Shown: one piece after another, positions 16,220-62,330 of the stretch
Numbering within the stretch: position 1 is the first letter of the stretch
Layout: every line of letters begins with the position of its first letter
DNA from: Sporosarcina ureilytica
GTDB taxonomy: Bacteria; Bacillota; Bacilli; Bacillales_A; Planococcaceae
Reading direction: 5' to 3'
Assembly: GCF_001753205.1 (NCBI RefSeq)
Contig: NZ_CP017560.1
Coordinates: forward strand, 2,294,001-2,358,000
Length of the DNA stretch: 64,000 nt
The notes under the pieces: generated by a model
What the model was told of the DNA's origin: nothing
What the model saw: only the letters and a program-made list of their open reading frames with translations
Database searches by the model: none
Made by a program: the position numbers and the translations under genes

Positions 16220-16258
16220 AAAAATGCTGCGCTAGACATTCTAGCACAGCACTTTTTT
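16219..16258. terminator. Bidirectional terminator between fer and ribU
   Basis: Stem AAATGCTGcGCTAGA with near-complement TCTAGCACAGCACTTT, about 12 paired bases, with A and T runs on both sides. It serves the convergent fer and ribU transcripts. Confidence 0.85.
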
Positions 16259-16842
16259 TATTCAGACAACAACTTTGCACGTTGTTGATTAATCCAATTT
16301 TTCATTCGACTATATAACATAATTGAGACGACTGTTAGTAGAATACCTTTCAAAATATTAAACGGAAGGATTCCAAGGACAATCATTTTATATAATGCAT
16401 CGCCTGTTACGGGCGTCATATTTAAGAAGTAAGTATACATCGGTAGGAAAATAAGGTAGTTTAATATACTCATCCCAATTGCCATCGAAACAGTTCCGGC
16501 AATAAATCCACCTAGTAAACCTTTCGTACTTTTAAACTTTGTAAAGATGTAATAGATTGGCAAGATAAATAGCAATCCTGTAGCGAAGTTGGCAATTTCA
16601 CCAACCGGTACACCTGTAGGGCTCCCACTTAAAAACCAGTGCAAGACGTTTTTGATTAACTCGACTGCAATGCCTGCAATCGGTCCCATCGTCATAATTG
16701 CAATAACAGCTGGCACTTCCCCAAAGTCAAACTTTAAAAATGCAGGTAGCGCTGGTAACGGAAAATTAAATTGCATTAATACTGTTGCAATACTTCCTAG
16801 CATGGCGACAAGCACCATTTTACGTAACTTTTTACTATTCAT
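16258..16842 (-). CDS. ribU: Riboflavin ECF transporter substrate-binding subunit RibU
   Basis: The membrane S component that captures riboflavin and works with the shared EcfAA'T energising module, which is not in this window. The 194-residue protein has about five or six hydrophobic segments; the FPLPALPAFLKFDFGEVPA block (about 27-45) matches RibU/FmnP (YpaA). The assignment is supported by the FMN riboswitch in its leader: high FMN should stop expression. It lies next to fer as in B. subtilis. Confidence 0.95.
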   Translation of the reverse strand: MNSKKLRKMVLVAMLGSIATVLMQFNFPLPALPAFLKFDFGEVPAVIAIMTMGPIAGIAVELIKNVLHWFLSGSPTGVPVGEIANFATGLLFILPIYYIFTKFKSTKGLLGGFIAGTVSMAIGMSILNYLIFLPMYTYFLNMTPVTGDALYKMIVLGILPFNILKGILLTVVSIMLYSRMKNWINQQRAKLLSE

Positions 16843-16937: not shown

Positions 16938-16970
16938 ATAAAAAACCCCTAAAGCGTATTCACTTTAGGG
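16938..16970 (-). terminator. Riboswitch-controlled terminator in the ribU leader
   Basis: Stem CCCTAAAG/CTTTAGGG followed by GTTTTTTATT on the minus strand, lying between the FMN aptamer and the ribU start. It is the probable expression platform: with FMN bound the stem forms and transcription stops. The aptamer's edge lies about 140 bases upstream, so an antiterminator should lie between. Confidence 0.85.
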
Positions 16971-17112
16971 AGTTGTAGGTACACAAATAAACGTTCGATT
17001 AATTCCGCATTTCGCTTCTTTAATCGGAACTTTCATCGAATAAAATATTTTTATCCGTATGAAATAAGCGTTCTAATTATGTGTTTTTGCACATAATAGA
17101 CGGCTGCACCTT

Positions 17113-17239
17113 CACCTTCTCCCATCCAGACTATACTGTCGGCTCTAGAATCTCACTAGAATCAGCTAGATTAGCTCGCGGGCTCAGAAAACATTCTCCT
17201 ATTACCGCCGGTCGGGAATCACACCCTGCCCCGAAGATG
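17113..17239 (-). ncRNA. FMN riboswitch (RFN element)
   Basis: The minus strand shows the RFN landmarks in order: TCTTCGGGGCAGGGTG, then ATTCCCGACCGGCGGTAAT, then AGCCCGCGAGC, then GTGAGATTCTAGAGCCGACA, and finally GTCTGGATGGGAGAAG. These are the conserved sequences of the FMN aptamer, complete with the variable P3 arm in the middle. It precedes ribU, a classic target. Confidence 0.97.
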
Positions 17240-17267
17240 AATCAATATTAAATTTTCTTACATTTAT

Positions 17268-17296
17268 AGTATACAATAGAAAAAAGAGTTTGTAAA
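17268..17296 (-). promoter_or_regulatory. SigA-type promoter of the ribU leader
   Basis: On the minus strand TTTACA (17296-17291) and TATACT (17273-17268) are separated by 17 bases. Transcription would start about 15-20 bases before the riboswitch. The -35 hexamer lies inside a perfect 26-base palindrome. Confidence 0.75.
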
Positions 17297-17313
17297 CTAG
17301 CTAGTTTACAAAC
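17288..17313. repeat. Perfect 26-base palindrome over the ribU -35 box
   Basis: Two 13-base arms, GTTTGTAAACTAG and its exact complement, meet without a loop. It covers the -35 hexamer of the ribU promoter and ends just before the insertion-sequence relic. It could be a repressor operator, or a terminator or insertion scar; the sequence alone does not decide. Confidence 0.8.
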
Positions 17314-17314
17314 G

Positions 17315-17965
17315 ATTGAGTCAAGTTTTTGCGGGTACAATTTAAAGCGGAGTTTTTCTCTTCTTAGATAGGTAAGTATTCCGTTTTTAAAAATACCAAA
17401 TAAACCATGTTGATTTCCGTTCCGAGCGGACGCGTTCCGTGGGGCGGGCGGTGAGCCAGTCGCACAACGAAGAGTGCGACTTGCCGTATTTCTGCATGGT
17501 TTTGGCAGAAATTAAGGCATCCTACTTGGATATCGCTGCTCATAACGCTTCGCTTTTACTCGCAAAAGCCGTTCTTCGTGACGGCTCTTCCTGCGGGGTC
17601 TCACCTAGGAAAAAGTGAACTACCTTTTTCCCTGCTAAATCCCACCGGAGTCGCCGCTCTGCACTCCAATCAACAGAGATTCCATATATATAAATTTCTG
17701 TAAACGCATGTAACTAAATATCTTCGTTAACTCAATATCCCTGTAGTCCTTTTAAAACTTGATAAACAGGGTGCTTTATCACAGTTCTCGGCTATTATTT
17801 GATCGATCTCTGTTAAGAGCTGAGTGAACGCGGCTGAATAAGTTTGTTGAAGTGTTCTAAATAAATCTGTTTCAATCTCTTTCATGTTGGTAATTTCGTG
17901 TTATTTTTAATCATATGGGTTCTCTCCTGTAGTGTTTGTCTGCAAACTTCACTATACAAGAAGAG
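17315..17965 (-). mobile_element. ISLre2-like insertion sequence relic A
   Basis: An internally deleted element. Its ends are similar in inverted orientation: AGTCAAGTTTTTGCGGG on the left and, on the minus strand, AGTGAAGTTTGCAGAC on the right. A minus-strand frame at 17727-17885, starting ATG, encodes MKEIETDLFRTLQQTYSAAF and continues with a LLTEIDQIIAE segment, resembling the N-terminus of ISLre2/UPF0236 transposases, and then goes out of register and stops after 52 codons. The structured repeat at 17409-17674 lies inside. Flanks of the same kind recur at 45.4 and 50.6 kb. Family assignment is from memory and moderately sure. Confidence 0.55.
17409..17674. repeat. Structured intergenic repeat, copy A (266 bp)
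   Basis: Bounded by imperfect inverted ends, GTTGATTTCCGTTCCGAGCGG-like on the left and CCGCTCTGCACTCCAATCAAC-like on the right. Shared internal blocks are CGTTCCGTGGGGCGGGCGGT, then TGAGCCA, a stem around TGCCGTATTTCTGC, AAGGCATCC, and TCGCAAAAGCCGTTCTTCG. It is the longest copy in the window and lies inside IS relic A. Confidence 0.85.
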
Positions 17966-18013
17966 GGCCCTTTTTTCATGTTTTTAAATCTAAATTATTC
18001 CATGTGCAAACCA

Positions 18014-18140
18014 ATTAATCGGAGTGGAAATCGGCGACTCCTGCGGGAACAGCGCGAGCCGAAGACCCTGGACTGAGCGCAGCGAGGGAAGCGGCTGAGG
18101 CCGTGCCCGCGGAAAGCGTCCGATTGGAACGGAGATTAAT
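18014..18140. repeat. Structured intergenic repeat, copy B (inverted orientation)
   Basis: A 127-base copy in the opposite orientation: it begins ATTAATCGGAGTGGAAATCG, has GACTCCTGCGGGAACAGC, and ends GCCCGCGGAAAGCGTCCGAT followed by a GGAACGGAGATTAAT end. It stands alone, 64 bases downstream of rsiX, without the IS flanks. Confidence 0.8.
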
Positions 18141-18203
18141 TGTGTTATAGAACTTTTATTTATTCCCCTACAAACATTTTACTCATACTTTACAAACTCT
18201 TCG

Positions 18204-19385
18204 TTATTCCAACAATAAGTTTACCGGATTGCTAGCGACCGGTATTGGTAATGTTGAAGATAATTCATACCTTCCAAGCTTCTCTTGTGTCACATTCTCT
18301 AGCTTTACCGCCAACTGAAATTGTTCAGCGGTTAACATGAATCCCTCAATCATTAAGCGAGCCTGGTCATCATTCATTTGCGATAAATCAAGTGCGTCTT
18401 TGAATCGAATAAATGCGGTATCTTCCGCTACCCAAACATCATAGTGTACCGATTCGGGAACTAAACTTTCAAAGTCATCACTGTACTGCTTCTTCATATT
18501 CAATAACGCTTCCTCTGCAGTTTCCGCCAAATCCCCAGCGTCTTGAGGCACGATAAAGGTTTGTCCAGATGGTAACGTGTATTTGTAATAGGAAGCTGCA
18601 TAACCGTCCTGATTTAATTGTATCGCATCCATCGGTCCAACTTGGCTAAATTCGATTGGGTCACCATTTTCCTTCACAGGTAAAAATGTCGAAAAGTCGC
18701 TGAATGTCGATTTCATCATCCCTTCATAAACTTGAATCGAAGCGGAAGATTGATCATAAGGATGGTGACTTGGAAGTTTATGACGGACCATCCCGTCTTC
18801 AACAATTAACTCTCCTTCAATGGGGTGATAGTGATCAAAACCCAAAGCTCCCTCATGTATTTGATTAGCATACTTTTGATAGAGCGCTACACTGTTTGGA
18901 TTTCCCACTTGAAAATCTTTACGAATTTGTTCTGAAGGGATAAGGAATGTAACAGGAATCACGTGTGCTCGAGATACGAGACCTATTTGAAAAGGGATAT
19001 ACCCATTTAGTTCTTCCGCCAATAAAAGATGGCTACTTTGCTCCTCAATAAGTAACGCGGCCTCTTCTATACTCTTTTCTGCTTCCGCCATTTCATCTGC
19101 TGAATCGTCCATTTGCATAAATGTAGATTCCGAAGCACTATCCGACTGATGTTGACCATCCTTTAGCATGGACGGAATTAATAAGCTGAAAAACAGAACT
19201 GCAGCTATGGCTACTACGGTGGGCATCCATTTCCAAGACTTCTTCTCAACCGGCTGATCGTCTTGTAATCGTTTATCATTTTTCAGACGTATATATACTT
19301 CTTCCATGGATCGATTGTCTTCAGGTGCAGGCATTTGACTGAGCATCTTTTCAATCTTTTCTTCGGTCCACTTCTCTTTATCCAT
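18204..19385 (-). CDS. rsiX: Anti-sigma-X factor RsiX
   Basis: Membrane-bound regulator that holds SigX inactive. The N-terminal cytoplasmic part (1-48) is charged, a single membrane segment lies at about 50-72, and a large extracytoplasmic domain follows (about 90-393). Length 393 compares with about 368 in B. subtilis RsiX. It overlaps the end of sigX by eight bases, the usual arrangement for a sigma/anti-sigma pair. What triggers its release is not shown by the sequence. Confidence 0.9.
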   Translation of the reverse strand: MDKEKWTEEKIEKMLSQMPAPEDNRSMEEVYIRLKNDKRLQDDQPVEKKSWKWMPTVVAIAAVLFFSLLIPSMLKDGQHQSDSASESTFMQMDDSADEMAEAEKSIEEAALLIEEQSSHLLLAEELNGYIPFQIGLVSRAHVIPVTFLIPSEQIRKDFQVGNPNSVALYQKYANQIHEGALGFDHYHPIEGELIVEDGMVRHKLPSHHPYDQSSASIQVYEGMMKSTFSDFSTFLPVKENGDPIEFSQVGPMDAIQLNQDGYAASYYKYTLPSGQTFIVPQDAGDLAETAEEALLNMKKQYSDDFESLVPESVHYDVWVAEDTAFIRFKDALDLSQMNDDQARLMIEGFMLTAEQFQLAVKLENVTQEKLGRYELSSTLPIPVASNPVNLLLE

Positions 19386-35042: not shown

Positions 35043-35302
35043 AGTGAACCCCTCCTTCACGCCCTTCTTTCCACATCGGATTAAGAGAATCCTTCCCGGT
35101 GACAAAACTAGTCATTGAACGAAAAAACTTCTTATGTTTCGACAAAGTTTGGTCCTCCTCTAAGTATGTGCATTCGTAACCTAAATTACACATACGAGAT
35201 AGAAAAATTCATAATGTTTCTTTGGAAGTTGATTTCATGGATATTGGGACGTCTGTTAGTGATTGAATATATTCTAGATTTACAGGTTGGAATCCCAACG
35301 TT

Positions 35303-35520
35303 GTTGATTTCCGTTCCAGGCGCACGCTTTCCGTGGGGCGGGCGGTGAGCCAATCGCAAAACGGAGATTGCGATTTGCCGTATTTCTGCGGTTTTTGCAG
35401 AAATTAAGGCATCCTGTTGGATATTCCTGCTCATAACGCTTCGCTTTTACTCGCAAAAGCCGTTCTTCGTTACGGCTTTCGCTAATCCCACAGGAGTCGG
35501 CGCCTTCCACTCCAATCAAC
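35303..35520. repeat. Structured intergenic repeat, copy C
   Basis: A 218-base copy in the 809-base gap upstream of spoIIAA (35043-35850). It begins GTTGATTTCCGTTCCAGGCG and ends CTTCCACTCCAATCAAC, with the GGGGCGGGCGGTGAGCCA, TTGCCGTATTTCTGC, AAGGCATCC and TACTCGCAAAAGCCGTTCTT blocks. The IS-like flanks seen around copies A, D and E are absent. From 35521 to 35796 I see only AT-rich sequence without a supported gene. Confidence 0.85.
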
Positions 35521-44229: not shown

Positions 44230-45303
44230 TCAATCGACTTCTACGCCCCAATTAAATGGATCCTCAACCGTCCCTGTTTGTATGCCCGTTAATGTATCAT
44301 ATAATTGTTTAGACAGTTCGCCTGTTTTCCCTTCATTCACAACAAACTTTTCATCCTGCCAATTAAATTCGCCAATTGGGGAAATAACTGCCGCTGTTCC
44401 CGTTCCAAACGCTTCTTCTAACGCCCCATTTGCATGCGCTTCTTTCAGTTCTTCCATTGAAATTTTGCGCTCAATCACTGGGATATTCCAATGCTTTAGT
44501 AATTGGATAATGGATTTTCTTGTGATCCCTTCCAATATACTGCCATTCAGTTCAGGTGTAATGACTTCCCCATTAATTTTGAAGAAAACGTTCATACTTC
44601 CTACTTCTTCTATGTACTTTTTCTCCACACCATCTAACCAAAGAACTTGTGAATAACCTTTTTGTGCTGCTATTTCTTGTGCTTTTAATCCCGCCGCATA
44701 GTTACCTGCTGTCTTTGCTGTTCCAGTTCCTCCAGAAACAGCTCGAACGTATTCGTTTTCGACTAAAATTTTCACTGGATGAATTCCTTCTTTGTAATAA
44801 GAACCAACTGGCGACAAAATAATCATAAAACGATATTTGGTTGAAGGCGCAACCCCTAAATAAGGCTCAGTTGCAATCATGAAAGGTCTAATGTAGAGTG
44901 AGGTCCCCTCTGCTTTAGGAATCCAGTCTTTATCTACAATGAGTAATTGCTTCAATGCTTCAAGTGCAAACTCTTCGTCAATTTGCGGCATGCATAGACG
45001 TTCACACGATTGATTCATACGGCGCATATTTTGCTCCGGACGGAATAAACGGATTTTCCCTTCTTTAGATAAATAGGCTTTCAATCCTTCAAATACCGTT
45101 TGCCCATAATGAAAAATAATTGCTGCTGGATCAAGTGTTAGGGGTTCATAAGGAACTACTCGATGGTCTGTCCATCCTTTTTCCTCACAATAATCCGCAA
45201 TAAACATATGGTCCGTGAATACTCTACCAAATTGCAATTCCTCTGCTAACGGCTTTTCTCTTTTTGACTCACTCAGTTTGACTTCGATTGTTTGTACTGT
45301 CAT
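44230..45303 (-). CDS. ilvE: Branched-chain amino acid aminotransferase
   Basis: PLP-dependent transaminase for Leu, Ile and Val, class IV fold. The PLP lysine is in GTGTAKTAGNYAAGL (about 197-211), FHYGQTVFEGLKAY is the N-terminal signature, and EEVGSMNVFF and GSILEGITRKSI complete the family pattern. 357 residues, as YwaA/YbgE of B. subtilis. The gene stands alone with a possible CodY box in its leader. Confidence 0.95.
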   Translation of the reverse strand: MTVQTIEVKLSESKREKPLAEELQFGRVFTDHMFIADYCEEKGWTDHRVVPYEPLTLDPAAIIFHYGQTVFEGLKAYLSKEGKIRLFRPEQNMRRMNQSCERLCMPQIDEEFALEALKQLLIVDKDWIPKAEGTSLYIRPFMIATEPYLGVAPSTKYRFMIILSPVGSYYKEGIHPVKILVENEYVRAVSGGTGTAKTAGNYAAGLKAQEIAAQKGYSQVLWLDGVEKKYIEEVGSMNVFFKINGEVITPELNGSILEGITRKSIIQLLKHWNIPVIERKISMEELKEAHANGALEEAFGTGTAAVISPIGEFNWQDEKFVVNEGKTGELSKQLYDTLTGIQTGTVEDPFNWGVEVD

Positions 45304-45362: not shown

Positions 45363-45421
45363 AATGATTTAATAATTAGTATACTACGAAAAAGTCAGAA
45401 ATAATAGCATCATTTCAATTC

Positions 45422-45740
45422 TAACTGAGTCATGTTTTTGTGGGTACTATTTTAAGTAAATATTTTCTCCTCCTGGATAGTACAGTATCTCATTTTTAAA
45501 ATACGAAATAAAATGTTGATTTCCGTTCCGAGCGGACGCTTTCCGCGAGGCGTGCGGTGAGCCGCTTCCTTCGCTTCGCTCCGTCCAGGGTCTCACCTGT
45601 CACGCTTAATCTCGCAGGAGTCGCCGCTCTGCACTCCAATCAACAGAGATTCCTTTTATATAAATTTCTAAACACATATAACTTACATATGATCTGTCTT
45701 AGTCTCATTAATGTTGGTGATTTCGTGTAATTTACTCTAG
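45422..45740 (-). mobile_element. ISLre2-like insertion sequence relic D
   Basis: Shares its left flank (GAGTCATGTTTTTGTGGG, then TACTATTTTAAG) and its right flank (AGAGATTCC, TATATAAATTTCT, and ATGTTGGTGATTTCGTGT) with relic A, with a structured repeat between. The transposase start region is almost wholly deleted, and the outer right end is not recognisable. Confidence 0.5.
45515..45644. repeat. Structured intergenic repeat, copy D (130 bp)
   Basis: A short copy: GTTGATTTCCGTTCCGAGCG to GCACTCCAATCAAC, with CTTTCCGCGAGGCGTGCGGT and CTTCGCTCCGTCCAGGGTCT in the middle in place of the longer stem block found in copies A, C and E. Confidence 0.85.
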
Positions 45741-50077: not shown

Positions 50078-50542
50078 TCAATTCTCTAACAGATTTAATG
50101 CATGAATGACGCCGGCATGTGTTCCTTCATGCCAAGATAAGAATTGTACGATGCCATCAATCGTGCGAAACGTCATAATATCGTCTCCGATTACTAATGG
50201 TTCGTCCATTTTTCCGTCTAGCTTGTCTTCAATAAATGGAACGACCCAATCCATTTGTTCACGAAGCGCTGCCAAAATTTCTTCACCTGACGGAACGTCA
50301 TCTCCCCATTCGCTTGGACTTGATCCATCATCAAACAAAGGAATCCACTCCGGATATTTTGGCTCGTATGATTTTACGCTTTTTTGGAGGAATGTCTCTA
50401 CAATTACAAATATATGACCAGCATGCCAACGAATATTATTATTAAAGCCCTCAGGTTGATAATCCCACTTCGAATCATCTACCCTTTTCACCCGGCCAAT
50501 TGTATACATACGCGACAACCTTAATTGTTGAATCGTCTCGAT
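50078..50542 (-). CDS. DinB-family protein with apparent ATC start
   Basis: A four-helix DinB/YfiT-like protein with a likely metal site: WHAGH, and WHEGTHAGVIHAL near the C-terminus. The usual starts (TTG at 50518, ATG at 50509) lack a ribosome-binding site and remove the first helix. In frame upstream is ETIQQLRLSRMYTIGRV, which looks like the DinB first helix, and AAAGGAGAGG lies six bases before an ATC at 50542. An ATC start gives 154 residues. Function unknown; some relatives are thiol transferases. Confidence 0.72.
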   Translation of the reverse strand: METIQQLRLSRMYTIGRVKRVDDSKWDYQPEGFNNNIRWHAGHIFVIVETFLQKSVKSYEPKYPEWIPLFDDGSSPSEWGDDVPSGEEILAALREQMDWVVPFIEDKLDGKMDEPLVIGDDIMTFRTIDGIVQFLSWHEGTHAGVIHALNLLEN

Positions 50543-50617
50543 TGAAATCCTCTCCTTTAATTCTATGTCTACTTATTACTTTAGCTGATTATGTGCCATA
50601 TTTGAAATTTCTGGCTT

Positions 50618-51035
50618 GAAAGATTGAGTCAAATTTTTGTGGGTACTATTTTAAGCAGAGGTTTTCTTATCTTGGTTAGTTAAGTGGTCCGTTATTTAAA
50701 ATGCCAAATAAACTATGTTGATTTACGTTCCGAGCGGACGCTTTCGGTGGGCGTGCGGTGAGCCAATCGCAAAACGCAGATTGCGATTTGCCGTATTTCT
50801 GCGGTTTTTGTAGAAATTAAGGCATCCGGTCGATATTCATGCTCATAACGCTTCGCTTTTACTCGCAAAAACCGTTCTTTGTGACGGCTTTCGCTAATCC
50901 CACCCGAGTCGCCGCTCTGCACTCCAATCAACTGAGATTCCTTATACATAAGTTTTTATAAATGCAAATAACTTAAATAACTTTCTTATCTCAAAATCCC
51001 TGTCATCCTTTTAAAGCTCGATAAACAGGCTGCAT
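50618..51035 (-). mobile_element. ISLre2-like insertion sequence relic E
   Basis: Same left flank as relic A (GATTGAGTCAAATTTTTGTG, TACTATTTTAAGC, then CCAAATAAACTATG) and the same right flank (TGAGATTCC, then TCAAAATCCCTGTCATCC, GATAAACAGG), with a structured repeat between. It lies in the 613-base gap before the AEC transporter gene. The transposase start is deleted. Confidence 0.5.
50717..50932. repeat. Structured intergenic repeat, copy E
   Basis: A 216-base copy very similar to copy C internally: GTTGATTTACGTTCCGAGCG on the left, TTGCCGTATTTCTGCGG, AAGGCATCCGG, TACTCGCAAAAACCGTTCTT, and GCACTCCAATCAAC on the right. Confidence 0.85.
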
Positions 51036-58138: not shown

Positions 58139-58220
58139 TTTGGTTTCAACCCTTTCGTTACCGTCGCATTTTTTGTCAAATGCGATACAATAACTACCAT
58201 ATTAATCTTCAACTAATTTG

Positions 58221-58270
58221 TACCTATTACTGAATAGGTGCCAATTCTTATTAAAGAGTTGCGCGCGATT
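58221..58270. repeat. Array repeat R2
   Basis: Full-length type: CCTATTACTGAATAGG arm, then TGCCAATTCTTATTAAAGAG and TTGCGCGCGATT. It lies 40 bases after the DUF4181 gene stop. Confidence 0.85.
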
Positions 58271-58310
58271 ATAGAATATTACATTCCTAAAATATTCCCA
58301 CTGAATACTC

Positions 58311-58679
58311 TTAAAACAACCCAATTAAATTTTCCATATTATAAATCAAAACTGAACCTATCAATAAATATATTAATGTCACTATATATTGATTTGTACT
58401 TTTAAGGTACTTCCATTCCAAAATAAATTGCAATCCATTTTGTGCAATGACAAGGGAAATGAAATACCATCTTGCCACATTCCATTCTACTTCCGTATAG
58501 ATAACATAGATTAGACCACATAAAAAAATGACTGTAATAATACCTCTACCCCATTGGTCAATCTTTTTCCCAGAGGTATCTGAGATTTTCTTTTTTTCTA
58601 CTTTAAATAATTTATTCAAGAGTCTATCTAACGGAACACTTATAATAAATATGATTATAAAAAACAAAACAAATCCCAT
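58311..58679 (-). CDS. DUF4181-like membrane protein
   Basis: A 122-residue protein with four hydrophobic segments (about 1-15, 45-63, 68-88, 100-118) and the basic block LFKVEKKKISDTSGKKIDQW, which I associate with DUF4181 of Bacillus species. Function unknown. The start is ATG 58679, four to five bases after GAGGGG; an upstream GTG lacks a site. It is a one-gene unit of the array followed by R2. Confidence 0.72.
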   Translation of the reverse strand: MGFVLFFIIIFIISVPLDRLLNKLFKVEKKKISDTSGKKIDQWGRGIITVIFLCGLIYVIYTEVEWNVARWYFISLVIAQNGLQFILEWKYLKSTNQYIVTLIYLLIGSVLIYNMENLIGLF

Positions 58680-58707
58680 AATACCCCTCACTTCTTTATA
58701 TTTTGAC

Positions 58708-58868
58708 CCGTTTCAGTAAGAGGTTGCGAATCCTTGAAAGAAGCAAAGGATAGGGCTGAAAAGGCATCAAAGTTATTGGCAGGATATGCTGAAAAACATA
58801 CATCAGTCGTATTAGTTGGTCATGTTTTTTATTATGCTAATCACAAAAGAACTTCAGAAAGTGGGTGT
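58708..58868 (+). pseudogene. Fragment of a histidine phosphatase family gene
   Basis: A plus-strand frame reads ESLKEAKDRAEKASKLLAGY, then SVVLVGH, the C-terminal part of a phosphoglycerate-mutase-like phosphatase with its second catalytic His. After VGHVFY the frame shifts: a neighbouring frame continues MLITKELQKVG as in intact relatives. No start and no N-terminal RHG motif exist. It ends directly at array repeat R3, so it looks like a decayed unit in the opposite orientation to the rest. Confidence 0.65.
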
Positions 58869-58870
58869 TA

Positions 58871-58907
58871 TAATAGGGCGCAAATCTTATTCCAGAAGTG
58901 CGCCCGT
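58871..58907. repeat. Array repeat R3
   Basis: GGGCGCAAATCTTATTCCAG with AAGTGCGCCC, a seven-base-pair GC-rich stem. It lies between the plus-strand phosphatase fragment and the end of the minus-strand decayed gene(s) at 58930. Confidence 0.85.
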
Positions 58908-58929
58908 TTGAGAACTAGCTAGATAGTCA

Positions 58930-59581
58930 TTACTGTTGTTTCTCGATGATCAATTGTCCTTTTTGTTGGTCGACATTGAAAGTCATTTCCTTACTATTTC
59001 CCAAATTTGCTGAAACTGTTTTTCCTTGATAGCGTTCATCTGCATAGATAAATACATAACCCTCTTTTTCAATGATAACGTAACCTTCACGCTCTCCTTC
59101 CTGTAACTCTAATAATCCATAACCTGCTTTTGAGTAATTAAATAGGGCAATGGCAGGCATATCATTAATAGTTAATGCAAAGGCTGTCAGCTCACCATCA
59201 ATCCATTCATCTATTTTAGTTATTTCCGCAAGGTCTTTATTTAACGAATAAGGACTTTCATAATGCGATTGGATTTCACGCCAAAGCTCTTGCTGTGTTG
59301 GACAACCGTATATCCAGCTTCATAATGTTCTGGTACAACCGTGAATACCCTATTGGGGTAGTTTTTATCTAGATAATCACTTACGATTTCATACGCTTCA
59401 GAATGCTTATCCGTTTTCAACGTAGGAAAATAAAGAACATATCCAATAAACCCTAAGACAAGGATACTCGTTAACGCAATTCCTACTCTTCTTTTCCTTC
59501 TAAAAATAAACCACAGAATTGTTATCACAATTACTACTGCAACTCCAACTAAAAAAAGTAGATTAGTTCACTTGGACTCAT
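58930..59581 (-). pseudogene. Frameshifted or chimeric membrane-protein gene(s)
   Basis: A perfect AGGAG site and ATG at 59581 start MSPSELIYFF, and then a stop follows a seven-base T run (59551-59557). One extra T would continue LVGVAVVIVITILWFIFRRK into the frame that ends at 59241, a membrane-anchored protein with YEIVSDYLDKNYPNRVFTVV. A third frame, open from 59319, then runs to 58930 (QQELWREIQSHYESPYSLNK through ALTINDMPAIALFNYSKAGY) without a start of its own. So either one gene with two frameshifts, or the 5' part of one gene joined to the 3' part of another. Confidence 0.6.
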
Positions 59582-59631
59582 ATGATTTCTCCTAACACAA
59601 AAGAAATTCTTATAATTGTTCTTCCAAAATT

Positions 59632-59684
59632 CGGCCCTATTACATAATAGGCGCTAATCCTTATTAAAGAACTGCGCCCGATTG
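59632..59684. repeat. Array repeat R4
   Basis: Full type: CCTATTACATAATAGG, GCGCTAATCCTTATTAAAGA and ACTGCGCCCGATTG. It lies 50 bases after the stop of the gene at 59735 and 50 bases before the start at 59581. Confidence 0.9.
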
Positions 59685-59734
59685 TTTAAATATAGTATTT
59701 CATAAAAATGAATTACTTCGTCCAAAAATCCATT

Positions 59735-59965
59735 TTACGTATAAACAGAAAAAGACCATACGATTAAAAAGATGCTTACTATTCCCCAAAGAACGGCTCC
59801 CCATACCCACCAAATAACGGGTTTAGGTGAAATCTGTTTACCATCCACACTTTCCTTATTTTCTTTTAATAAAGCGACCTTCATTTCCATACTTTTTTTC
59901 ATGGAAACAAGAACAACAAATCCAATTATGATGAAACCCACGGTTATCCAAAGTAACAAATCCAT
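59735..59965 (-). CDS. Small two-segment membrane protein
   Basis: 76 residues with membrane segments at about 3-20 and 52-73 separated by a charged loop (KKSMEMKVALLKENKESVDG). GGGGGTG precedes the ATG by five bases. I do not recognise a family. One-gene unit of the array followed by R4. Confidence 0.7.
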   Translation of the reverse strand: MDLLLWITVGFIIIGFVVLVSMKKSMEMKVALLKENKESVDGKQISPKPVIWWVWGAVLWGIVSIFLIVWSFSVYT

Positions 59966-60003
59966 GTTTACACCCCCTGTTTTACTAGCTCAACTCTACA
60001 ATA

Positions 60004-60041
60004 CGGGGCGCAAATCCTTCCTTGAGAATCGCGCCCATTAG
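60004..60041. repeat. Array repeat R5
   Basis: GGGGCGCAAATCC and GAATCGCGCCCATTAG; a six-base-pair GC stem. It overlaps the stop codon of the gene at 60038. Confidence 0.85.
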
Positions 60042-60268
60042 TTGGAAGCTGCATTATTTTTGGTGGTTTCAGGAAATAAATATGAAATTAAAATTAAAAT
60101 AATTCCTATTGAAAATCCTGTCCAAGTTATGGCATCCATTGTGATATCCGTTAGATTGTAAGCAATTCCTGTGGAAAGTAAAACTATTTTTAGAACAAGT
60201 GTGAGCATTACAATCCCAAATGCAATCCACTGAATAATATTCCGTTTGCTATAATTTTTACTTTTCAT
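60038..60268 (-). CDS. Small two-segment membrane protein
   Basis: 76 residues, basic N-terminus (MKSKNYSKRN), membrane segments at about 11-33 and 45-66. AAAGGATGG precedes the ATG. No recognised family. Its last codon and stop (TAA) lie within array repeat R5. Confidence 0.68.
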   Translation of the reverse strand: MKSKNYSKRNIIQWIAFGIVMLTLVLKIVLLSTGIAYNLTDITMDAITWTGFSIGIILILISYLFPETTKNNAASN

Positions 60269-60326
60269 AAGACCATCCTTTGATAGCTCATAATTTGATT
60301 AGAAAAACTAGGCTTATCCTGCAAAC

Positions 60327-60371
60327 TGGCCCGATCTAGGCACAACTCTTATTCCAGAATTGCGCCTGATT
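60327..60371. repeat. Array repeat R6
   Basis: GGCCCGATCTAGGCACAACT, CTTATTCCAGAATTGCGCCT: the arms AGGCACAA and TTGCGCCT pair at seven of eight positions. It lies 12 bases after the stop of the gene at 60384. Confidence 0.85.
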
Positions 60372-60383
60372 CTGGGATAATCA

Positions 60384-60683
60384 TCAAATGAGGGGTTCTT
60401 CCTCATTCGGTAATTCAACAAAAAAAGGATTAATTATAAAAAACAAAGGAAGTAAACCTAAAAATGCAAATATGGCAACATAGGAAGGTCCAAGGAAATG
60501 ATTACCTACCAATATCAAGGGGACTATTATAAAAGGCATTAATGCACTTCTTTTTCTCATACGTGCTGTCAGATACTGTTTTTCACCACAATAAGGACAA
60601 ATCATTCCACCAATTAATGTAAAGGACTTATTAAAAGGCTGCTTCCAGCTCCATCTACGGTGACAGTTTTGACAAGTTGGCAT
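60384..60683 (-). CDS. CxxC-20-CxxC family protein (TIGR04104-like)
   Basis: 99 residues from the ATG at 60683, seven bases after GGAGT. The N-terminus has two Cys pairs (CQNC and CPYC) about 21 residues apart, likely a zinc ribbon, followed by RKRSALMPFIIVPLILVGNH and a second membrane segment. This matches the small family I know as cxxc_20_cxxc (TIGR04104), of unknown function, found in Bacillota. One-gene unit of the array, followed by R6. Confidence 0.8.
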   Translation of the reverse strand: MPTCQNCHRRWSWKQPFNKSFTLIGGMICPYCGEKQYLTARMRKRSALMPFIIVPLILVGNHFLGPSYVAIFAFLGLLPLFFIINPFFVELPNEEEPLI

Positions 60684-60731
60684 TTTAATTACTCCATTAC
60701 TGTAATATATAACATCAACCATTACGCAAAA

Positions 60732-60784
60732 TGGCCCTATTACTGAATAGGCGCTAATCCTTATTAAAGAATTGCGCCCGATAC
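60732..60784. repeat. Array repeat R7
   Basis: GGCCCTATTACTGAATAGGC, GCTAATCCTTATTAAAGAAT and TGCGCCCGATA, nearly identical to R4. It lies 23 bases after the stop of the kinase-like gene. Confidence 0.9.
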
Positions 60785-60807
60785 TTGAATTAAGGAATAT
60801 TCATTAC

Positions 60808-61332
60808 TCATACATTTATGTAATTTATAACTTCATCAATGTAGCTTTCTAACGGCCTACTAGTATCAATAAGCAAGCACTGAATGTCATTTGGTTTTTT
60901 GCTGTTTTCTATTGTGTATTTAAAAGCCTCTTCAGAGTTTATTTCCTTGATTTGGCTTATCATTCTTTCACGGTTTTTCAATCTATAATTAATCTCTTGA
61001 AAGTCGTTTAGATAGCATTCAACATATTTGTATTTCACATTATACTTTTCAGACAAATCCCTGCCCCTAACAATCATTTCTTGATAAAGACACGGGCTAT
61101 CGAATACAACATTTTGCCCTTGTGATAAGTGAAAATCAATTAAAGACCAATCAATACTGTATGAAATTTTACCGGCAATTTTCATGTCAATTGGATTGTC
61201 CTCTATCGAGTTTAATAAAGCAGATTTAACAATGTCATGGTCTACTACAATCGCACCAGTTCTCTTACCAATTTCTCGGGATATTGTGGACTTCCCTGAA
61301 CCAGGGAATCCAGACATTTGAACAAAAAACAT
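60808..61332 (-). CDS. P-loop kinase-like protein
   Basis: A 174-residue AAA/kinase-fold protein with Walker A GFPGSGKST (about residues 8-16), VVDHDIVKSALL after it and a later RLKNRERMISQI segment. It resembles small zeta-toxin or nucleoside/shikimate-kinase-like proteins that phosphorylate metabolites or antibiotics, but the substrate is not clear. The ATG at 61332 follows GAGGTG by five bases. One-gene unit of the array. Confidence 0.8.
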   Translation of the reverse strand: MFFVQMSGFPGSGKSTISREIGKRTGAIVVDHDIVKSALLNSIEDNPIDMKIAGKISYSIDWSLIDFHLSQGQNVVFDSPCLYQEMIVRGRDLSEKYNVKYKYVECYLNDFQEINYRLKNRERMISQIKEINSEEAFKYTIENSKKPNDIQCLLIDTSRPLESYIDEVINYINV

Positions 61333-61405
61333 GGATACACCTCTACTTTCTCCTGACTTTTTATTGGCCAACCTTCCATCTTTTTATATGAATTACTCAA
61401 TTAGT

Positions 61406-61441
61406 TGGTCCCATTCAGGCACAGCCCTACTATGCCCAAGA
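61406..61441. repeat. Array repeat R8 (degenerate)
   Basis: GGTCCCATTCAGGCACAGCC, CTACTATGCCCAAGATA: recognisable start but the GCGCCC arm has decayed. It lies between the kinase start and R9, with only 70 bases between R8 and R9, perhaps the remains of a lost unit. Confidence 0.55.
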
Positions 61442-61511
61442 TAATTCCAACCTGTTTCATACATTACCCCCTATGTATTAAATCAAATTGATATAGTTCC
61501 TCTTGAACAAT

Positions 61512-61558
61512 CTGGTCCAATTGAAGCACAATTCCTATCCAACAACTGCGCCCGATTG
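61512..61558. repeat. Array repeat R9
   Basis: CTGGTCCAATTGAAGCACAA, TTCCTATCCAACAACTGCGC, CCGATTG. It lies 28 bases after the stop of the Nudix gene. Confidence 0.8.
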
Positions 61559-61586
61559 CGGCACAGTTTACTTTAGTTTTATTATT

Positions 61587-62204
61587 TCAATCAAGGTATA
61601 CTGGCTGCTGCGGATTATGTAAATGTTTAAAAGCCAATTGTATTTGTGATTCTGTATTTCTTGCTACCGATAAGGGAGGCAATTCATTTTCAGCAAAGAA
61701 ATCAACTGCACTCGTTTCTATGCCCGTTTCCGCTTTCCCGCCAATGATTTCACACTGAATAAAAAATTTATAAACGTGATAGGCAGACGATGGGTGGGGA
61801 TGAAATTTTTTATCCATTACACCAATCAATTTAGTCGCCTTCACTTCAAACCCCGATTCTTCTTGTACTTCTTTTACCGCAACCTCACTTGGAGACAGGC
61901 CAATATCACCCCATCCCCCTGGCAAAGCCCAAACATTTTCAACGTCTTCTTTAACCATTAAAATTTTATTATCTTTGAAAACAACTGCTCTAACATCAAC
62001 CTTAGGCGTAGCGTAACCTGTTTCATTTGCAAATAATTCTTTTATAACATTGTTGTCCATTTTCGTTTGTTGCGATAGCATTTCAACGCTAATATTCCTT
62101 ATCATTTCAAATCTTTCAATGTCATATTTATCTTTCGAATAGGTTAAGCCCGCCTGTGCAATAGATTGTAATTGTTTTGCCCATTCAAGCCATTTAGGTT
62201 CCAT
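61587..62204 (-). CDS. Nudix hydrolase with N-terminal helical domain
   Basis: 205 residues. A helical N-terminal extension (about 1-65: WLEWAKQLQSIAQAGLTYSK) precedes the Nudix fold; the box is GGWGDIGLSPSEVAVKEVQE followed by ESGF, with Lys in place of the usual Arg. This is the ADP-ribose/nucleotide-sugar hydrolase subgroup with the Nudix-N2 domain. The exact substrate is unknown. GGAGAGTG precedes the ATG. One-gene unit followed by R9. Confidence 0.88.
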   Translation of the reverse strand: MEPKWLEWAKQLQSIAQAGLTYSKDKYDIERFEMIRNISVEMLSQQTKMDNNVIKELFANETGYATPKVDVRAVVFKDNKILMVKEDVENVWALPGGWGDIGLSPSEVAVKEVQEESGFEVKATKLIGVMDKKFHPHPSSAYHVYKFFIQCEIIGGKAETGIETSAVDFFAENELPPLSVARNTESQIQLAFKHLHNPQQPVYLD

Positions 62205-62283
62205 CTTAAATCACTCTCCGTTGAATTTCTCATAATAGAATTAACCAACCTTTGCTCGCAATCCAAAAGATCCCATGCCTCAA

Positions 62284-62330
62284 TCTGTCCCGATTGAGGC
62301 ACAGTGTTTCTTCAACAACTGCGCCCGATA
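62284..62330. repeat. Array repeat R10
   Basis: CTGTCCCGATTGAGGCACAG, TGTTTCTTCAACAACTGCGC, CCGATA. It lies 109 bases after the stop of the gene at 62440 and is the copy nearest the right edge of the array. Confidence 0.8.

Follow-up and report, generated by a model that had tools for sequence, protein, structure and literature searches.

Relic A and Its Surroundings

The window analyzed here comprises 64,000 nucleotides of the Sporosarcina ureilytica genome (denoted G000; positions 2294001-2358000 on one 3.44-Mb contig). Three insertion sequence (IS) relics, denoted A, B, and C, lie within it at 17.3, 45.4, and 50.6 kb. As the initial annotation had reported, they have a left flank (~95 nt) and a right flank in common, with a palindromic repeat inside each. 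The features of relic A and its surroundings are as follows.

16258-16842, minus strand: riboflavin-type substrate component of an ECF transporter, following the riboswitch (Pfam PF12822, E 6.7e-33)
17110-17242, minus strand: FMN riboswitch downstream of the promoter that relic A faces (Rfam RF00050, 117 bits)
17268-17296, minus strand: promoter faced by relic A (TTTACA, 17 nt, TATACT)
17305-17313, no strand: target duplication TTTACAAAC, 9 bp, left copy (comparison of both flanks)
17314-18188, minus strand (transposase sense): relic A, ISLre2-family element with an internal deletion
17409-17674, plus strand: 266-bp left palindrome of relic A, with a long tip (palindrome comparison)
17727-17885, minus strand: transposase remnant, a UPF0236 start joined out of frame to apparent last codons (Pfam; last codons by eye against genome G114)
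17915-17975, minus strand: transposase leader with a -10-like box and a stem able to cover the ribosome-binding site (predicted folds)
18014-18140, minus strand: 127-bp palindrome on the right of relic A, in inverted orientation to that on the left and 48 nt inward of the right end
18189-18197, no strand: target duplication TTTACAAAC, 9 bp, right copy (comparison of both flanks)

The transporter gene also matched PF07155 (E 3.6e-4), below the cut-off of that profile. Relic A had been taken to end at 17965. Its true right end, however, is at 18188, as indicated by TTTACAAAC on both sides, by an empty site in the relative G080, and by alignment with a second copy of the element (L031, ~15.8-17.0 kb of the genome), which extends from the left end (17314), across the 18.0-kb palindrome, as far as this right end. 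Because relic A extends to 18188, the palindrome at 18.0 kb is not a free copy, as had been supposed, whereas that at 35.3 kb is. The target duplication that the initial annotation proposed to look for was identified with nine of nine positions matching. In G080, window positions 16938-17312 and 18185-18624 join with a 12-nt overlap and no sequence between them, in surroundings of 82-92% identity. Relic A may have inserted after the split of G000 and G080 or been lost precisely in G080, and its duplication favors insertion. A hairpin resembling a terminator is interrupted by the relic.

The first 38 codons of the 17727-17885 frame match the start of Pfam UPF0236 (E 7.9e-4) at 18.8 bits, below the curated cut-off of 24.3 bits. 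The transposase-like start described previously was thus recovered at a sub-threshold score, while the inverted ends described with it (...CTCAATC and ...CTCATAC, each with the terminal C) are only imperfectly alike.

Relics B and C and Comparison with a Relative

Relics B and C, the promoters that they face, and the free palindrome of the window are as follows.

35302-35519, plus strand: free copy of the palindrome family, with a long tip (short-tip copy at the same place in G080)
45378-45383, minus strand: TATACT faced by relic B (class IV aminotransferase gene at 44230-45303)
45423-45735, minus strand: relic B, which retains its left end and left palindrome (45515-45644) but not its right end
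50578-50583, minus strand: TAAAGT faced by relic C (DinB-like gene at 50078-50518)
50622-51033, minus strand: relic C, likewise without its right end, the left end and left palindrome (50717-50932) being retained

None of the three relics was found in G080. The sites of B and C are not clean in that genome: ~1 kb of other sequence occupies the B site, and the C site is adjoined by another element of this kind, 774 bp long and in the opposite orientation. At the 35.3-kb place, the palindrome in G000 has the arms AGGCGC/GCGCCT and a long tip, and that in G080 (L165:16663-16791) has GGGCGG/CCGCCC and a short tip, such that the entire hairpin at window 35302-35519 seems to have been swapped. The same letters (GATAAACAGG) occur at the internal deletion of relic A (window 17761-17770) and at the break of relic C (51024-51033), which may reflect chance or a common history.

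Assignment to the ISLre2 Family

Judged from sequence comparison, relic A is an internally deleted member, and relics B and C are truncated members, of the ISLre2 family (UPF0236 transposase). ISLre2 elements generate 8-9 bp duplications, have inverted ends of 18-39 bp with a terminal C, and transpose through a circular form, according to PMC3942029. The UPF0236 / p-MULT 3 transposase is present here as remnants only, and the duplication of this length was identified in relic A (9 of 9), relics B and C having no right end. Across 18 reconstructed sites, the two copies of the duplication match at nine of nine positions in 10 and at at least eight of nine in 15. The elements therefore share transposase remnants, duplications, the terminal C, and promoter-side insertion with ISLre2 (p-MULT 3, UPF0236/PF06782) and TnGBS as described in PMC3942029, and differ from the published elements in being deleted.

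The only UPF0236 match in this genome is L031 (E 6e-48, 163.8 bits, 210 profile positions), which carries two stops; the UPF0236 search recovered no full-length element with these ends in the genome. Among 261 genomes of the family screened at E <= 1e-40, matches were found only in G000 (broken), G114 (a full-length element split into two halves at the ends of two contigs), and G119 (intact). G119 is Ureibacillus terrenus, assigned to the Caryophanaceae (formerly Planococcaceae) in the NCBI taxonomy. Intact relatives sharing these ends were identified in Ureibacillus, Neobacillus, Halalkalibacterium, Fervidibacillus, Pallidibacillus, and others. Transposase remnants, matching ends, a duplication, and promoter-side insertion, together with full-length elements with matching ends in U. 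terrenus and other relatives, whose absence the initial annotation had named as grounds for refutation, show the original label of an ISLre2-like relic to have been correct. An intact transposase within a palindrome-bearing element was not found; the closest approach, L099 in G015, is interrupted by a stop late in its frame. Relics A, B, and C appear to have lost their transposase through separate deletions and would now be dead.

Insertion Upstream of Promoters

The left end faces a sigma-A promoter in all three relics. We compiled 87 flanks of loosely matched left ends and dropped 41 with more than four mismatches (mostly right ends read loosely), leaving 46 distinct flanks. A TAnnnT box starts 37-43 nt beyond the left end, on the transposase 3' side, in 41 of these 46 flanks (the exceptions being L036, L041, L094, L139, and L140). 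In 1000 trials, shuffled flanks had a -10-like box at that distance in a mean of 11.9 and a maximum of 21 cases. The -35-like hexamer with the best match begins 14-19 nt from the end, the distance being 17 nt in 20 of the 41 flanks; these matches are weak, reaching at least four of six letters in only 19 of 41 with the best of five spacings, and add little. Right-end flanks had no TAnnnT peak of this kind.

These observations show a one-way insertion just upstream of sigma-A promoters, in agreement with PMC3942029, where ISLre2 is described as inserting in a single orientation, the 3' end of the transposase pointing to the promoter, at 15-17 bp before the -35 region. ISLre2 copies have also been reported to lie mostly 50-250 bp from genes (PMC9208149). 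For the window, the local map is corrected: an IS relic lies directly upstream of the promoter of a riboswitch-controlled riboflavin transporter. A preference of the IS for hairpin targets was considered and rejected, as only the relic A site, among 18, folds far better than its shuffles (z -5.3).

A Dispersed Palindromic Repeat

Copies of the palindrome are sharply bounded (GTTGATT...AATCAAC and covarying versions), span 127-443 bp, and have short or long tips. Among 33 distinct short copies (under 140 bp), 98.4% of cells are paired and double changes occur at 16 of 34 pairs. Sliding one arm by 1-3 columns lowers pairing to 36-48%, and 500 shuffles reached at most 92% pairing and 13 double-change pairs, a margin that is indicative, since this alignment also supplied the structure and the shuffles take no account of kinship. 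In one copy (L104, G000:C1:161250-161697), the tip consists of approximately seven head-to-tail hairpin units of ~65 bp each, related to the long tip of relic A.

The genome contains 83 matches to relic A or its parts, the relics included, and many of the palindromes stand alone. With the whole relic as query (1e-20), 136 of 250 genomes of the family yielded a match, and most of the matches listed cover palindrome parts only. Because of these stand-alone copies and palindrome-only matches, the palindrome is a dispersed repeat rather than IS debris only. Thirteen of 14 free copies have a gene call on both sides and are intergenic; the gene context of the 14 (8 co-directional, 4 convergent, 1 divergent, 1 unclear) is too small a sample to use. 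When eight free-palindrome sites were compared with G080 (a ninth, L024, was dropped as a partial match only), the palindrome was absent in five (L117, L118, L122, L127, and L021) and present in three (L007, L011, and L020). A clean insertion history was sought and abandoned, as the intergenic stretches are too different between the genomes for a boundary to emerge.

By eye, no clear T run follows the palindromes, and they are therefore not ordinary intrinsic terminators. At its own thresholds, Rfam identified only the FMN riboswitch in the window and had no match for the palindrome. The Staphylococcus aureus small RNA tsr24 matched window 18014-18140 at 33.3 bits (E 2.5e-5), below the Rfam gathering score of 50, which hints that relatives of the palindrome may extend to Staphylococcus; a literature search on this match to the right palindrome returned nothing.

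The palindrome resembles REP/REPIN and other bacterial palindromic repeats in being dispersed, intergenic, hairpin-forming, and high in copy number (PMC3733652 and PMC12306157), and differs in size, at ~130-440 bp versus the 20-40 bp given for REPs in PMC3733652. A Y1/RAYT transposase was rejected as its driver: no palindrome was seen by eye in the 3.3-kb stretches surrounding the two Y1 genes of the genome. At one locus (L033, G000:C1:3059534-3059860), a 217-aa RAYT-type Y1 transposase has a different repeat (GGTGCCAGTCACT) in inverted copies on either side. Between short genes at window 58220-62329 lie 49-60 nt repeats of two families (TTGCGCCCGAT type), neither related to the palindrome.

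Palindromes and Private Hairpins Inside the Elements

In six genomes, all nine two-ended relics have palindromes at both ends, mutually inverted, although these nine were chosen with a query containing the palindrome and are biased accordingly. A right-end pattern without the palindrome gave 49 matches in 14 of 68 genomes, of which 42 were read; two of the seven unread matches (L094 and L102) are already known palindrome carriers. The right slot holds the palindrome in 29 of the 42: 20 by pattern, two in altered form, and seven by eye, the last resting on the first letters of the palindrome, where the contig stops. The other 13 comprise four with a private hairpin (three in G114, one in G278), four with neither, and five apparent chance matches. 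Where elements found through this pattern have a left end, palindromes were identified by pattern at both ends in 13 of 17. Right palindromes lie 47-65 nt from the IS right end, upstream of the transposase promoter. Collectively, these comparisons show that in this genus most sampled members have a palindrome ~50 nt inside the right end and another, inverted, ~95 nt inside the left. In L209 (G282), the arms of the right palindrome are altered to GACTTTTTG/CAAAAAGTC with complementarity kept.

Of 18 ISLre2 relatives, 17 carry a private hairpin (16-23 bp) at the right-slot position, each exceeding all of its 40 shuffles; L141 fails this test. Across 20 relatives there are 14 distinct arms, and the arms change yet stay paired. 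Three of 19 relative loci (L147, L148, and L151) were left out of the right-slot and leader-fold comparisons, and the 16 named elements are not independent, as five come from one Halalkalibacterium halodurans genome, two are Pallidibacillus, and two belong to strain Marseille-Q3522. In G114 and G119, full-length copies of the private hairpin are confined to the IS, and the hairpin is not dispersed. Downstream of the slot, in folds of intact leaders, a stem is predicted over the transposase promoter and ribosome-binding site. The right-slot hairpin is missing in two more distant ISLre2 elements and in four right ends of the genus, and is therefore not essential. In Halalkalibacterium halodurans DSM 497, an ISLre2 copy (L144) lies, by eye, within palindrome-arm-like sequence, with the duplication CGCGGAAAG.

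Phylogenetic reconstruction places the right copies of five genomes, an interchanged copy from L198, and one basal free copy in one group (92-93% bootstrap, unstarred); left copies fall in at least two groups, near free copies. A single gain of the palindrome is probable on the right, and on the left either one gain followed by conversion or more than one. We searched the openly available literature and found no account of this palindrome or of hairpins inside ISLre2; 'hairpin' and 'palindrom' are absent from the main text of PMC3942029 (ISLre2/TnGBS).

Origin and Maintenance of the Palindromes

The initial annotation offered two alternatives: that the repeat was carried by a deleted IS that spread as a non-autonomous element, or that it prefers to insert there. 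With one copy in the right-hand hairpin slot and a second near the left end, the palindrome is resident in this IS lineage, which supports carriage by a deleted IS and broadly favors the former alternative. Spread as a non-autonomous element received only partial support, in that the nine two-ended copies have nine different lengths (574-1214 bp). This looks like separate decay or separate deletion derivatives rather than one uniform miniature inverted-repeat transposable element (MITE). Relic A could still belong to a uniform, actively spreading non-autonomous family defined by the palindromes: A and C are absent in G080, which has another deleted element beside the C site, and in G015 many contigs terminate at right ends, which suggests that copies arose recently in that genome. 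Right-end copies stop at contig ends in G282 as well. The nine lengths, with no deletion in common, make such a family improbable. MITEs, among them bcr1 from the Bacillus cereus group (named in PMC3733652), are likewise non-coding IS derivatives with the ends of the IS; unlike these uniform copies, each copy here has its own deletion.

Preferential insertion of the repeat is not needed for the relics, but it may describe the first arrival of the left copy. Taken further, the palindrome would be an independent mobile repeat that inserted into ISLre2 ends repeatedly and secondarily by target preference. The many free copies in this genome, the placement of left copies in two or more groups near free ones, flanks outside the left IS palindromes that by eye resemble those of free copies, and palindrome-less left ends in G114 and G005 are all in line with this. 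It is nevertheless unlikely, as the right copies of five genomes form one group and lie 47-65 nt from the end. Of the 18 reconstructed IS sites, only that of relic A folds clearly better than its shuffles, a result that bears on the target choice of the IS rather than on that of the palindrome.

The strongest rival to a role in insulation is gene conversion without function, in which the two palindromes would be useless in themselves, persisting by conversion with dispersed copies and acting only as recombination sites. The interior of L198 (G080) is inverted between its two palindromes with the duplication intact, and the 35.3-kb palindrome and its G080 counterpart have unlike arms and tips, both in line with this explanation. 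This explanation, which we regard as possible yet doubtful, leaves unexplained why relatives have a private hairpin in the same slot, with arms that change but remain paired. We instead favor, at a probability of roughly three in four, deleted or truncated ISLre2 elements with resident paired palindromes, in the right slot and at the left end, that would be kept as insulating hairpins.

Possible Role and Implications

Our best guess for the role of the hairpins is insulation of transcription, for which they would be kept as structures. As the elements lie upstream of the promoter that they face, this insulation would act in both directions. Together with the stem that covers the ribosome-binding site, the right hairpin would prevent host transcripts entering the element from yielding transposase, and the left hairpin would stop transposase transcripts short of the promoter next to the insertion site. 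In this lineage, copies of the dispersed repeat would have taken over the insulation. IS10 and IS50 are protected from outside transcription. The elements described here resemble them in that a predicted stem would mask the ribosome-binding site of the transposase in transcripts initiated externally, and differ in an additional long hairpin further upstream.

More tentatively, ISLre2 elements of Bacillales may have a slot for an insulating hairpin selected for its structure, in which one lineage would have exchanged its private hairpin for a palindrome of the dispersed family while adding a second copy at the other end. If true, this would be a case of an IS recruiting repeats as interchangeable insulators. 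The arrangement observed suggests how a promoter-targeting insertion sequence may be built to live beside promoters, and the swapped hairpins would provide a natural set for testing insulation.
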